Of a DNA stretch of 63,673 nt, positions 4,115 through 63,669 are shown in pieces. The notes beneath the pieces were generated by a model, which was given only the letters and a program-made list of their open reading frames with translations, searched no databases and was not told the DNA's origin. Position 1 is the first letter of the stretch. Every line of letters starts with the position of its first letter. Origin of the DNA: a bacterium (GTDB taxonomy: Bacteria; RBG-13-66-14; B26-G2; WVWN01); the NCBI GenBank assembly GCA_035529855.1, contig DATKVX010000043.1:1-63673 (forward strand), read 5' to 3'. The translations under genes and the position numbers were made by a program.

Positions 4115-4300
4115 TTATTCTGACGGACCCGGCCCCACCTCGCGCGCGGGCGCTTTCTCCTCTTTCTCGGCGCGAGCGGCTTCCTCGAGCGTAATCGCCG
4201 GCTTCATAGTACGTCGCGCCCAGCTCGAAGGCCAAGGCCGGGTCGTCCGGCGCCGCGGCAAAAGGCGGATATTTAAGCCGTTGCCGCCGGGCCGATACGT
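4115..4300 (-). pseudogene. Remnant of the C-terminal end of a TPR protein
   Basis: Reading leftward, one frame gives DDPALAFELGATYYEAGDYA, a clear TPR helix pair, up to about position 4190. The neighbouring frame then gives LEEAARAEKEEKAPAREVG and a stop at 4115. One added base near 4189 would join them. The upstream part overlaps the ispF promoter and no start region is visible, so this reads as a decayed 3' fragment of a TPR gene. It may also be chance, since GC-rich DNA produces Ala/Glu-rich frames. Confidence 0.4.
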
Positions 4301-4309
4301 TGTTATAAT
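4281..4309 (+). promoter_or_regulatory. Sigma70-like promoter for ispF
   Basis: TTGCCG at 4281-4286, 17-bp spacer, perfect TATAAT at 4304-4309. Only 12 bp separate the -10 box from the ispF ATG, so the 5' leader would be about 5 nt. Confidence 0.75.
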
Positions 4310-4321
4310 AGCCGTTGGAAT

Positions 4322-4804
4322 ATGACCAGAATAGGTATAGGGTACGACGTGCACGGCTTCAAGAACGAGGGCCCGTTAATCCTCGGCGGCGTGGAAGTCC
4401 CCTACGAGCGGGGGCTGGCCGGGCACTCCGACGGCGACGTCCTGTTGCACGCCGTTATGGACGCGATGCTCGGCGCCGCGGCGCTCAAGGACATCGGCCA
4501 CCAGTTCCCGGACACCGACGTTCGCTTCAAGGGCGCGGACAGCGCCAAACTCCTGGCCGAAGTGCGGACCATGGTCGAAAGCGAAGGGTTGAGGGTCGGC
4601 AACGTCGATTGCGTAGTCGTCGTCGAGCGGCCTCGCCTCGCCAAGTACGTCGACCGGATGCGCGCCCGCGTCGCGGAGCTGCTGGGCGTGGGCATAGCCG
4701 CGGTAGGCGTAAAGGCCAAGACGAACGAGGGCTTCGGTTACATCGGCGAAGGGGAGGCCATAGCGGCGTGGGCGACGGTGTTGCTCGAGCCGCTCGAGGG
4801 GTGA
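4322..4804 (+). CDS. ispF: 2-C-methyl-D-erythritol 2,4-cyclodiphosphate synthase
   Basis: Cyclises CDP-methylerythritol 2-phosphate to ME-2,4-cPP in the non-mevalonate isoprenoid pathway, in the cytosol. 160 residues, the usual length. Metal ligands of the family are visible: D9 and H11 in GYDVHG and H43 in LLHAVMDA; HSDGDV (35-40) and IGHQFPDTD are conserved substrate-site segments, and the C-terminal KAKTNEGFGYIGEGEAI matches the CDP-binding region. It sits behind its own promoter, without ispD beside it, followed 27 bp later by archease. Confidence 0.95.
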   Translation: MTRIGIGYDVHGFKNEGPLILGGVEVPYERGLAGHSDGDVLLHAVMDAMLGAAALKDIGHQFPDTDVRFKGADSAKLLAEVRTMVESEGLRVGNVDCVVVVERPRLAKYVDRMRARVAELLGVGIAAVGVKAKTNEGFGYIGEGEAIAAWATVLLEPLEG

Positions 4805-44700: not shown

Positions 44701-45516
44701 TTAGTTCGCCTTTGTTTCTTTTTGGTGGGGCGCGCGTTGGCGCTTCTTCGACCGGAGGAGCTGCAGCGTTTTGTGCGCCGCCCTCATTTCGGCGTCTTTC
44801 TTGGAGCGGCCCCGGGCCTTGCCGTACACTTTACCTTTTATTTCGACGCCCACGACGAACTCGGCGTTGTGCTGCGGGCCCCGCCGGGTGAGGACGCGGT
44901 AGGTCGGGTTTTCGCCGAACCGCTCCAACACGACGCGCTGCAGCAGCGATTTGTAATTCTCGAGGTTGCCGCGCGAGACTATTTTCTGGATGCGCCCCTC
45001 GAGTTGCTCGGTTATGAAATCCTTCGTCTCGTCGATGGTCGACGAGAGGTAGAGCGCGCCCACCAGCGCCTCGAAAATGTCGGAGAGGATGGAGGGTTTA
45101 CGCCGGCCGCGGCTCAGGACCTCCCCTTTGCCGAGGTGCATAAGCCGATTCAGGCCCAACTCGGTCGCGATTTCGGACAGCGTGGTCTGGCTGACGACCT
45201 CGCTTTTGATCTTCGTCATGTCCCCTTCGTTCATGTCCGGGAAAGTGTTGTAGAGGTATTCGACGACGACGAGGCCTATGACGGAGTCGCCCAGGAACTC
45301 GAGCCGCTCGTAATCCTCGGTGTCTTGTTCCGACTCGTGGGCGAACGAGGTATGGGTCAGCGCCTGGTCGATGAGCGAGAGGTCGGCGAGGTGGATGTCG
45401 TGCTCTTTGCAGAATTGCCTGAGCTCCCGGAGGCGGTCTTCCGGGAGCTCGTCGTCGAAGAGGTAGCCTTCCAAAGGCTCCTGGCGGCCGAGTAATTTTT
45501 TCACGAAATTAGCCAT
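44701..45516 (-). CDS. rnc: Ribonuclease III
   Basis: 271 residues, dsRNA endonuclease for rRNA and mRNA processing. Signature ERLEFLGDSVIGLVV at 70-84 (E73 and D77 metal-binding), DIFEALVGALYLSS for the second acidic pair, then a double-stranded RNA-binding domain at about 195-262. An N-terminal extension of about 40 residues (LGRQEPLEGYLFDDELPEDR) precedes the usual start of the fold. Start is the ATG of MANFVKK; the longer open frame upstream overlaps fabF and is spurious. The rnc-acpP-fab arrangement is common in bacteria. Confidence 0.94.
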   Translation of the reverse strand: MANFVKKLLGRQEPLEGYLFDDELPEDRLRELRQFCKEHDIHLADLSLIDQALTHTSFAHESEQDTEDYERLEFLGDSVIGLVVVEYLYNTFPDMNEGDMTKIKSEVVSQTTLSEIATELGLNRLMHLGKGEVLSRGRRKPSILSDIFEALVGALYLSSTIDETKDFITEQLEGRIQKIVSRGNLENYKSLLQRVVLERFGENPTYRVLTRRGPQHNAEFVVGVEIKGKVYGKARGRSKKDAEMRAAHKTLQLLRSKKRQRAPHQKETKAN

Positions 45517-59413: not shown

Positions 59414-60142
59414 CTAAAGATAAAAACGCGGGGCGACCCAAATGGCCCACCCGGTGAAGTCCTCGCTGGTGGGGCCCCGTAGCGGTACTTCGCCGTATTG
59501 GGCCCAGTTGGCGAGCGTCGCTTCCCCGGTCCAATAGGTACCGTACGCTTCGACTGCCAGGGGGCCGAACAAGGCGAACTCGGCCCCGAGTCTTAGCTCC
59601 GGGCCGTAGCACACCTCTCTCGTCCACGCCGTGCCGTCAACGGTTAAGAGCCCCAGGAGCGTAGCGTCCTGGGCCGTGTCGTAGTTCACGATAAAGGTGA
59701 CTATGCCCAGACCCATCTCCGGTTTTATTCGGCCGTCGAGGAATCCCGGCATGAGGAACGTGCCGCCGATGCGAAGTGGTAGGATGTGCGTCGTAAGTTT
59801 TACGGTGCGCTTGTATTGCGGGCCGGTGTAAATTGCTTCGTGCTCTTTGCGGATATTGGCGACGAAGGCGTCTATCCGGAAGTAACTGCCGAGAGTGACG
59901 CCGTAGCCCAGGCCGAAGCCCATCCCAGGCGTGATGTCGCCGAACTCGCCGTCGTGGCCCAAATACTTTTCGAAGCCTTCCACGTCCTCTGTTTTGACCC
60001 AGGCATTTGCCCGCGGCATCTCCATTTGCGGGAGAACGAACCCCGCGGTCACGCTGCCTTCGACGAACAAGGCGCCCGCGGTGCCGGCCGTCGCCGCGAA
60101 TAGGCCCGCAACGGCACAGATTACTACGGTCCATTTGTACAT
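59414..60142 (-). CDS. Predicted outer-membrane beta-barrel protein
   Basis: 242 residues. Signal peptide MYKWTVVICAVAGLFAATAG to about A24, then alternating strands of a small barrel (VEGSVTAGFVLPQME, FGLGYGVTLGSYFRIDAFVA, LTTHILPLRIGGTF) ending VAPRFYL with C-terminal aromatic Y/L, as in OmpW or OMP_b-brl proteins. No known family is certain. It is a single-gene unit with its own hairpin-flanked promoter region at 60180-60205 and terminator. Confidence 0.78.
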   Translation of the reverse strand: MYKWTVVICAVAGLFAATAGTAGALFVEGSVTAGFVLPQMEMPRANAWVKTEDVEGFEKYLGHDGEFGDITPGMGFGLGYGVTLGSYFRIDAFVANIRKEHEAIYTGPQYKRTVKLTTHILPLRIGGTFLMPGFLDGRIKPEMGLGIVTFIVNYDTAQDATLLGLLTVDGTAWTREVCYGPELRLGAEFALFGPLAVEAYGTYWTGEATLANWAQYGEVPLRGPTSEDFTGWAIWVAPRFYL

Positions 60143-62172: not shown

Positions 62173-62577
62173 ATGCCCGAACTGACGTTCTCCGAAATGC
62201 TGCGCTTAGGCGGCATCCCGACCTATATCTCGTTCCTGGCGGGAATATTTATAATAACTCTTATTATAATGGGCTATTTTACCATCGCGCCGTACGCGCG
62301 CAAGCGGCCCCACGGGCCGCTCGTCAAGCAGTGGGCGTGGGCCATCCTCATCTGCGGCCTTGTCTCCGCGTTCAACGGCGGCCTGGGGACCGTCACCGGG
62401 CTGGTCAACGTCCACCGCGCCGCGGCCGCGGCCGGCGTCGACGCCGGCGCCGTCATGGCCCAGGGCGCGTTCGAGGTCCTCTTCAACGTGGCCTTCAGCT
62501 TTATGTTCGCCTGGTTGGCGTTCTTCGGCTACGCGACGATGCGGCTGGTCGCGGCCGGGGAAGTAAAGGAAGAATAA
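62173..62577 (+). CDS. Small membrane protein with MotA/TolQ/ExbB-like segment
   Basis: 134 residues, three transmembrane helices (ISFLAGIFIITLIIMGYF, WAWAILICGLVSAFNGGLG and the last, FEVLFNVAFSFMFAWLAFFG). The stretch GGLGTVTGLVNVHRAAAAAG plus MAQGAFEVLFNVAFS resembles the G-L-x-G-T-V-x-G-x-I pore region of MotA/TolQ/ExbB proton channels, but the protein is much shorter than those. No TolR/ExbD partner is beside it. GGAG lies before the ATG. It may be a remnant or mini-channel; low certainty. Confidence 0.6.
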   Translation: MPELTFSEMLRLGGIPTYISFLAGIFIITLIIMGYFTIAPYARKRPHGPLVKQWAWAILICGLVSAFNGGLGTVTGLVNVHRAAAAAGVDAGAVMAQGAFEVLFNVAFSFMFAWLAFFGYATMRLVAAGEVKEE

Positions 62578-62769: not shown

Positions 62770-62798
62770 TTGACGCGGTAGCTCCTTTTATTTAGATT
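62770..62798 (+). promoter_or_regulatory. Promoter for the zinc-ribbon/barrel protein
   Basis: TTGACG at 62770-62775, 17-bp spacer, TAGATT at 62793-62798, about 50 bp before the ATG; GAGGAGG ribosome-binding site. Confidence 0.55.
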
Positions 62799-62848: not shown

Positions 62849-63607
62849 ATGAAAGAAGTGACGGCGGTAGTAGTCGGCGTTATCATTGCTTTAGGGCCCG
62901 CGGCCGTTTCGGCGTTTGCGGATTTTAATGAAGAAAATCCGTTCGCTTTGGCGGCCGGCGACGCGGATGGTGAAATTTGCCCGAGTTGCGGCGCGGCGAA
63001 CGTAGCCGATGCCGTTTACTGTTATAAGTGCGGTGAGAAATTCCCCCAGCGCCCGCAGGATTTCGAATTCTGTCCATATTGCGGCGAAAAAATAAACCCG
63101 GGAGACCGGACGTGTCCTCATTGCGGCATTACGATAGCCCGGGGGCCAGTGCCGGAAAAGCGGGCCACATGGGAAAGAAAGATGTTTGGTTTTACGTTGG
63201 GCGTAGGAGCAGACATCGGCGACGACACCGATATCTTATTTCCGGCCGAATTCGCGTTAAACTTCTTCGACCATTTAGCTTTCGGCCCTGAGGTAAGTTG
63301 GGCGCCGGGCAGCTCAAGAAAGGTCGTGTTGGTCGGGGGCAGCGTGCGGGGTTATATTTTACCTTACTCACGGGGTTATTTTATTAAACCGTACGGGAAT
63401 TTTAGGTTCGGTTTAAACAACTATAAAGACCGATATGGCGACCGGCAAGATATGGTTTATTACGGTGCCGGTGGCGGCCTGGATTTAAGGATAACCGGGA
63501 GTCCATTGGTTATTTTCGTCAGCGCCGGGGTTAGGGTAAGAAGGGACGCTTGGGAGATTAAAGATACGTACTTTACCCCCGCCGCCGGCCTACGCCTGTT
63601 TTTATGA
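62849..63607 (+). CDS. Exported double-zinc-ribbon protein fused to an outer-membrane beta-barrel
   Basis: 252 residues. Signal peptide with probable cleavage near SAFA|DF. Then two zinc ribbons at about 44-100: EICPSCGAANVADAVYCYKC (first) and FCPYCGEKINPGDRTCPHCG (second), eight Cys in DZANK-like spacing. From about 112 to the end is an eight-stranded barrel pattern (MFGFTLGVGADIGDD, EFALNFFDHLAFGPEVSW, FIKPYGNFRFGLNN) ending FTPAAGLRLFL with C-terminal aromatic/Leu. Zinc ribbons normally stay in the cytosol, so export of reduced Cys8 ribbons joined to a barrel is unusual. It may sense or bind metal. Single-gene unit. Confidence 0.8.
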   Translation: MKEVTAVVVGVIIALGPAAVSAFADFNEENPFALAAGDADGEICPSCGAANVADAVYCYKCGEKFPQRPQDFEFCPYCGEKINPGDRTCPHCGITIARGPVPEKRATWERKMFGFTLGVGADIGDDTDILFPAEFALNFFDHLAFGPEVSWAPGSSRKVVLVGGSVRGYILPYSRGYFIKPYGNFRFGLNNYKDRYGDRQDMVYYGAGGGLDLRITGSPLVIFVSAGVRVRRDAWEIKDTYFTPAAGLRLFL

Positions 63608-63642: not shown

Positions 63643-63669
63643 GGCCGGCCTTCGGGCCGGCCCCTTTTT
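63643..63669 (+). terminator. Terminator after the zinc-ribbon/barrel gene
   Basis: Stem GGCCGGCC/GGCCGGCC with loop TTCG, then CC and five T. Confidence 0.88.

Follow-up and report, generated by a model that had tools for sequence, protein, structure and literature searches.

A zinc ribbon predicted to be exported with a small outer-membrane barrel in a bacterial lineage with no detectable disulfide-forming enzymes

Zinc ribbons are regarded as cytosolic domains, and the periplasm is regarded as a place where free cysteines are oxidised. The ribbon families DZR (PF12773) and Zn_Ribbon_1 (PF13240) are usually found in the cytosol, and in the membrane-anchored zinc-ribbon proteins ZitP and TcaA, the ribbon lies before the membrane segment and is cytosolic too. 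Small eight-stranded outer-membrane barrels include NspA, OmpX, OmpW, the N-domain of OprF and the transmembrane domain of OmpA. In two-domain proteins of the OmpA/OprF type, a small barrel is combined with a periplasmic domain, a peptidoglycan-binding OmpA-like domain at the C-terminus.

Here, we describe a gene from a bacterium of the phylum RBG-13-66-14 that brings a double zinc ribbon and a predicted barrel together behind a predicted signal peptide. The gene is found near the end of the 63,673-nucleotide stretch that was analysed (the window), which is the complete contig C43 of a 2.62 Mb genome (G000, 97% complete). Its product resembles ZitP and TcaA in having a ribbon joined to a membrane segment, but the ribbon comes after a signal peptide. 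It resembles OmpA and OprF in the pairing of a small barrel with a putative periplasmic domain, but the domain in question is N-terminal and consists of a zinc ribbon; the protein ends where the barrel ends, with no C-terminal OmpA-like peptidoglycan-binding domain. The same domain order recurs in the phylum, and no Dsb or VKOR enzyme for disulfide formation was detectable in the sampled genomes. Ribbon and barrel are both known, but their compartment and combination appear to be new and undescribed, and a full-text search of the open-access literature returned no paper on an exported ribbon–barrel fusion.

The gene and its predicted parts

The gene is a single open reading frame of 252 amino acids with an ATG start and a TGA stop, which leaves 66 bases between it and the contig end (Table 1). 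A promoter-like match is located 50 bases upstream of the start codon.

Table 1. Features of the ribbon–barrel gene and its flanks (window coordinates).
Feature	Position	Strand	Basis
Candidate promoter, sigma-70-like TTGACG-17-TAGATT	62770..62798	+	Pattern scan 9/12, consensus match only
Whole gene: predicted signal peptide, double zinc ribbon and predicted outer-membrane barrel	62849..63607	+	Full-length homolog L105:5974-6774
Predicted Sec signal peptide, residues 1-24, AFA|D site	62849..62920	+	Hydropathy, motif
Linker, residues 25-43	62921..62977	+	AlphaFold model, low confidence there
Zinc ribbon 1, residues 44-61, CPSCG ... CYKCG	62978..63031	+	Pfam DZR stretch 44-93
Zinc ribbon 2, residues 75-92, CPYCG ... 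CPHCG	63071..63124	+	Zn_Ribbon_1 best stretch 74-93
Predicted beta-barrel, residues 113-252, 8-9 strands, C-terminus AAGLRLFL	63185..63604	+	AlphaFold, Foldseek
Intrinsic-terminator-like hairpin 3' of gene	63643..63662	+	8 G-C pairs, then T-run

The third-position GC content was 0.56 in this gene and 0.59 in its closest homolog (L105:5977-6771), compared to 0.74–0.89 in most neighbouring genes, a pattern as seen in recently acquired or fast-changing genes. Closely upstream (62173-62577) is a membrane protein of 134 residues that weakly matches MotA/ExbB, and the minus strand at 59414-60142 encodes a further exported protein whose match to an outer-membrane barrel family is weak (OMP_b-brl, 0.0003, below cut-off).

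Signal peptides and export were called by rules based on hydropathy and motif. The N-terminus, MKEVTAVVVGVIIALGPAAVSAFA followed by DFNEE, is signal-peptide-like, with a lysine at position 2 and an AFA|D cleavage motif, and the most hydrophobic 13-residue segment of the protein begins at residue 4. These features predict a Sec signal peptide of about 24 residues; a signal peptide had also been supposed in the original prediction. No segment past residue 30 reached a transmembrane level of hydropathy. We considered the possibility that the ribbon is cytosolic, with a transmembrane anchor or a wrong start accounting for the first hydrophobic segment, as the phylum has numerous ribbon proteins that are cytosolic or whose N-termini are of the cytosolic type. 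This is very improbable, however, since the ribbon comes after the sole strongly hydrophobic segment and before the predicted barrel, which has to sit outside the inner membrane, and since signal peptide, ribbon and barrel follow each other in the same order in ten proteins of the phylum.

The eight cysteines are arranged in two CxxC...CxxC quartets (residues 44, 47, 58 and 61, and 75, 78, 89 and 92) with CPxCG knuckles. At the cysteine frequency of 0.008 found in the sampled exported proteins, eight cysteines in 48 residues would be expected with P ≈ 5e-9, and a chance cluster was rejected. Zn_Ribbon_1 (3.2e-12), Zn_ribbon_3 (2.9e-11) and DZR (1.5e-9; 38.3 bits against a curated cut-off of 27.3) all matched above their curated cut-offs. 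A PDB sequence search with the ribbon gave weak matches to ribosomal and polymerase ribbons and nothing else, and the AlphaFold model of the closest homolog shows four short strands within the two ribbons. The two ribbons originally proposed thus stand, but they do not directly follow the signal peptide, beginning about 19 residues past the predicted cleavage site.

CPxCG knuckles occur in rubredoxins as well, and COX1 and cytochrome bd subunit I were not found in any of the 14 phylum genomes; since neither a heme-copper nor a bd oxidase was found, anaerobic life is likely. The Cys4 sites could then bind iron in a rubredoxin-like manner and carry electrons within an anaerobe's envelope. We regard such a redox role as highly unlikely, because the knuckle spacing of ≈10 residues and the best profiles are those of zinc ribbons. 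Among the 25 of 36 Pfam matches listed there was no rubredoxin, and the best-scoring ones were ribbon families.

No Pfam family matched the barrel part (residues 102–252) up to E 0.1, OMP_b-brl (PF13505) included. AlphaFold predicted 8–9 strands for the window protein modelled with one homolog, with block-mean pLDDT of 67–84 over the barrel, and exactly eight strands for the closest homolog. Both models were made from two-sequence alignments (mean pLDDT 66 and 62), and the strand number is therefore a prediction. In Foldseek, both models matched NspA, OprF, OmpA, Ail, OmpX and OmpW, the best PDB matches being NspA, OprF, OmpA and OmpW (E 8e-6 to about 1e-3). The predicted fold and strand number are those of NspA, OmpX, OmpW and the OprF and OmpA barrel domains, but the identity is only about 9–16%, and the window barrel differs in matching no Pfam family and in carrying the extra N-terminal ribbon module. 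The C-terminal residue is aromatic, as is typical of barrels, in most of the ribbon–barrel relatives, and the source genome encodes homologs of Omp85 (3.7e-59), the family that inserts barrels. The structure prediction agrees with the expectation of a barrel after the ribbons, and the C-terminal part is predicted to be a small outer-membrane barrel of about eight strands.

Recurrence of the fusion

The closest homolog (L105:5974-6774; probable GTG start) belongs to another species of the same genus, Candidatus Zixiibacteriota bacterium CSMAG_2382 (G001), in which we take CSMAG to mean a cold-seep genome. It is 36–38% identical to the window protein, has its parts in the same order and conserves all eight ribbon cysteines. 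Proteins with a signal peptide, ribbon and barrel were found ten times, in five of the 14 phylum genomes (G000, G001, G005, G009 and G012): the window gene; a second G000 gene, split across the ends of contigs C62 and C93 and joined via an identical overlap; L105, L080 and L082 in G001; L024; L060; a tandem pair in G005 (L031); and L087. Some start and end calls of these relatives were made by us and not taken from the annotation. The same order was thus found in homologs, as the original prediction called for, and a restriction of the fusion to the window contig was rejected, since L105 and other loci carry all three parts. In the relatives, signal-peptide-like N-termini also precede the ribbon, which is present in one or two copies per protein, and the ribbon cysteines always occur in whole CxxC...CxxC quartets, even in highly diverged members.

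The barrels are far less uniform. In an all-against-all BLASTP comparison of the barrel parts, the window protein, L105 and a G000 relic were interlinked (E 2e-33 to 1e-13) and the two tandem G005 copies were linked to each other (E 1e-8), while every other pair gave E 0.04 or worse. Two histories would account for this: repeated fusion of the ribbon to barrels, or divergence of the barrels past the point at which kinship can be recognised. Two remnants were found in G000: a barrel remnant beside nadB, without an in-frame ribbon or signal peptide (C93 near 44762-45115; L002), and a single-ribbon remnant interrupted by a stop codon and what seems to be a frameshift (C129 near 4216-4383; L005). 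They indicate that ribbon–barrel copies have been gained and lost.

Used as a lone query against the genome contigs, the window protein gave no match, and an alignment of it with its homologs gave one locus. A wide profile search of 386 genomes gave matches in 262, nearly all of them ribbon-only. The loci fetched outside the phylum included one protein with the same part order (L151 in G117) and one in which a signal peptide and ribbon are followed by a domain other than a barrel (L137, G132:C31); a plasmid search with the outside-phylum member gave no match. Since the survey outside the phylum was shallow, similar ribbon–barrel proteins may be common elsewhere.

A second exported class in the phylum has a signal peptide, a ribbon and transmembrane segments (L105:5066-5698, L003:434-1333, L069 and L085). 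One such gene sits just upstream of the ribbon–barrel gene in both L105 and G000:C62; the L105 copy appears to continue beyond its stop in another frame. Further along L105 (8745-10493 and 10587-12338) are two M14-like carboxypeptidases in tandem, whose C-terminal domains look like type IX secretion sorting domains. A widespread SPFH-domain-like protein carrying between two and four zinc ribbons at its C-terminus was also seen (L004, L007, L011, L014, L016 and L020).

Redox setting of the envelope

Searches with Pfam-type Dsb and VKOR families, in which the controls gave matches, found DsbB and VKOR in none of the 14 phylum genomes, and DsbA above cut-off in none, with one sub-threshold match in G003. 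DsbD_TM matched in 12 of the 14, including the source genome, where the protein is 244 residues long and thus of CcdA size. The DsbD_TM family carries reducing power outward, and CcdA-size proteins also serve cytochrome maturation.

A bias towards even numbers of cysteines in exported proteins goes with possession of DsbA and DsbB/VKOR (PMC12453122). Among 60 exported proteins from ≈420 kb of the source genome, 50 contained cysteine, 24 with an even and 26 with an odd number. The same script gave 16 even and 4 odd for 200 kb of E. coli K-12 (Fisher P 0.017, small samples of 50 and 20 proteins), with a crude, rule-based screen that lets through a few cytosolic E. coli proteins. The contrast was kept at three of four thresholds; at the strictest, power was lost and it was not significant.

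The original prediction had presumed an oxidising compartment, which appears to be wrong here in view of the searches for disulfide-forming enzymes and terminal oxidases, the DsbD_TM matches and the lack of an even-cysteine bias. The lack of detectable disulfide-making enzymes, together with the repeated fusion to dissimilar barrels, suggests that envelope conditions are probably sufficiently reducing for zinc ribbons to function. Outside the phylum, the genome with the ribbon–barrel protein (G117) had no DsbA match, but G132, with the ribbon and other domain, had one, so that absence of DsbA is no strict condition for ribbon export.

The original prediction had offered two states for the domain, one that binds zinc in the periplasm and an oxidised disulfide form descended from a ribbon. 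In the latter case, the ribbon scaffold would have been retained as a metal-free knob braced by periplasmic disulfides, consistent with a cysteine-rich domain behind a signal peptide and with eight being an even number. We consider this unlikely: the knuckle motifs match metal-binding profiles above cut-off, the cysteines keep their grouping in fours and their ribbon spacing even where relatives have diverged strongly, neither DsbB, VKOR nor DsbA over cut-off was found in the 14 genomes, and the sampled exported proteins lack the parity bias. The sequences favour zinc binding, because the knuckles are intact, every relative has whole quartets, and the lineage combines a DsbD/CcdA-type exporter with no detectable disulfide-forming enzymes.

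Possible role of the exported ribbon

On balance, we think it probable, though far from certain, that the gene encodes a small outer-membrane barrel bearing, on its periplasmic side, an exported, reduced, metal-folded Zn(Cys4) ribbon that likely acts as a contact domain; we infer the metal, redox state, orientation and contact role. The product would be exported via Sec, its ribbons passing the inner membrane unfolded and metal-free, and the C-terminal barrel of about eight strands would be inserted in the outer membrane. Because an even-stranded barrel has both ends on the periplasmic side, the N-terminal double ribbon would hang there. It would stay reduced because the lineage lacks detectable periplasmic thiol-oxidising enzymes and has a DsbD/CcdA-type reductant exporter, and would fold as each Cys4 site takes up one Zn2+ or a similar metal. 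The ribbon may be a small shuffled contact domain, most likely for protein–protein contacts, and its partner is perhaps the exported double-ribbon inner-membrane protein encoded beside the barrel gene at L105. This contact role is suggested by analogy and by one conserved gene pair.

The Cys8 domain might instead take up, buffer or sense Zn2+ (or Fe or Cu) at the outer membrane, with the barrel sharing in this function. A barrel with two Cys4 sites at its periplasmic face would suit such a role, as would the variation among copies and their turnover, which is like that of accessory genes. The sites in zinc ribbons usually serve structure rather than metal exchange, however, an eight-stranded barrel is usually too narrow for conduction, and no metal-transport genes were identified in the partly annotated neighbourhood of the window gene, which makes metal handling rather unlikely.

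A broader idea, less likely than not, is that zinc ribbons have become a general envelope module in this lineage, a metal-folded contact domain that has been shuffled onto different barrels and also onto inner-membrane proteins. Ribbon-to-ribbon contacts might then link the two membranes, and a periplasm without oxidative folding would have made this possible. Cysteine-rich exported proteins of such anaerobes should not be taken for disulfide proteins, and the lineage makes it testable whether a Zn(Cys4) domain folds and works in a non-oxidising bacterial envelope.
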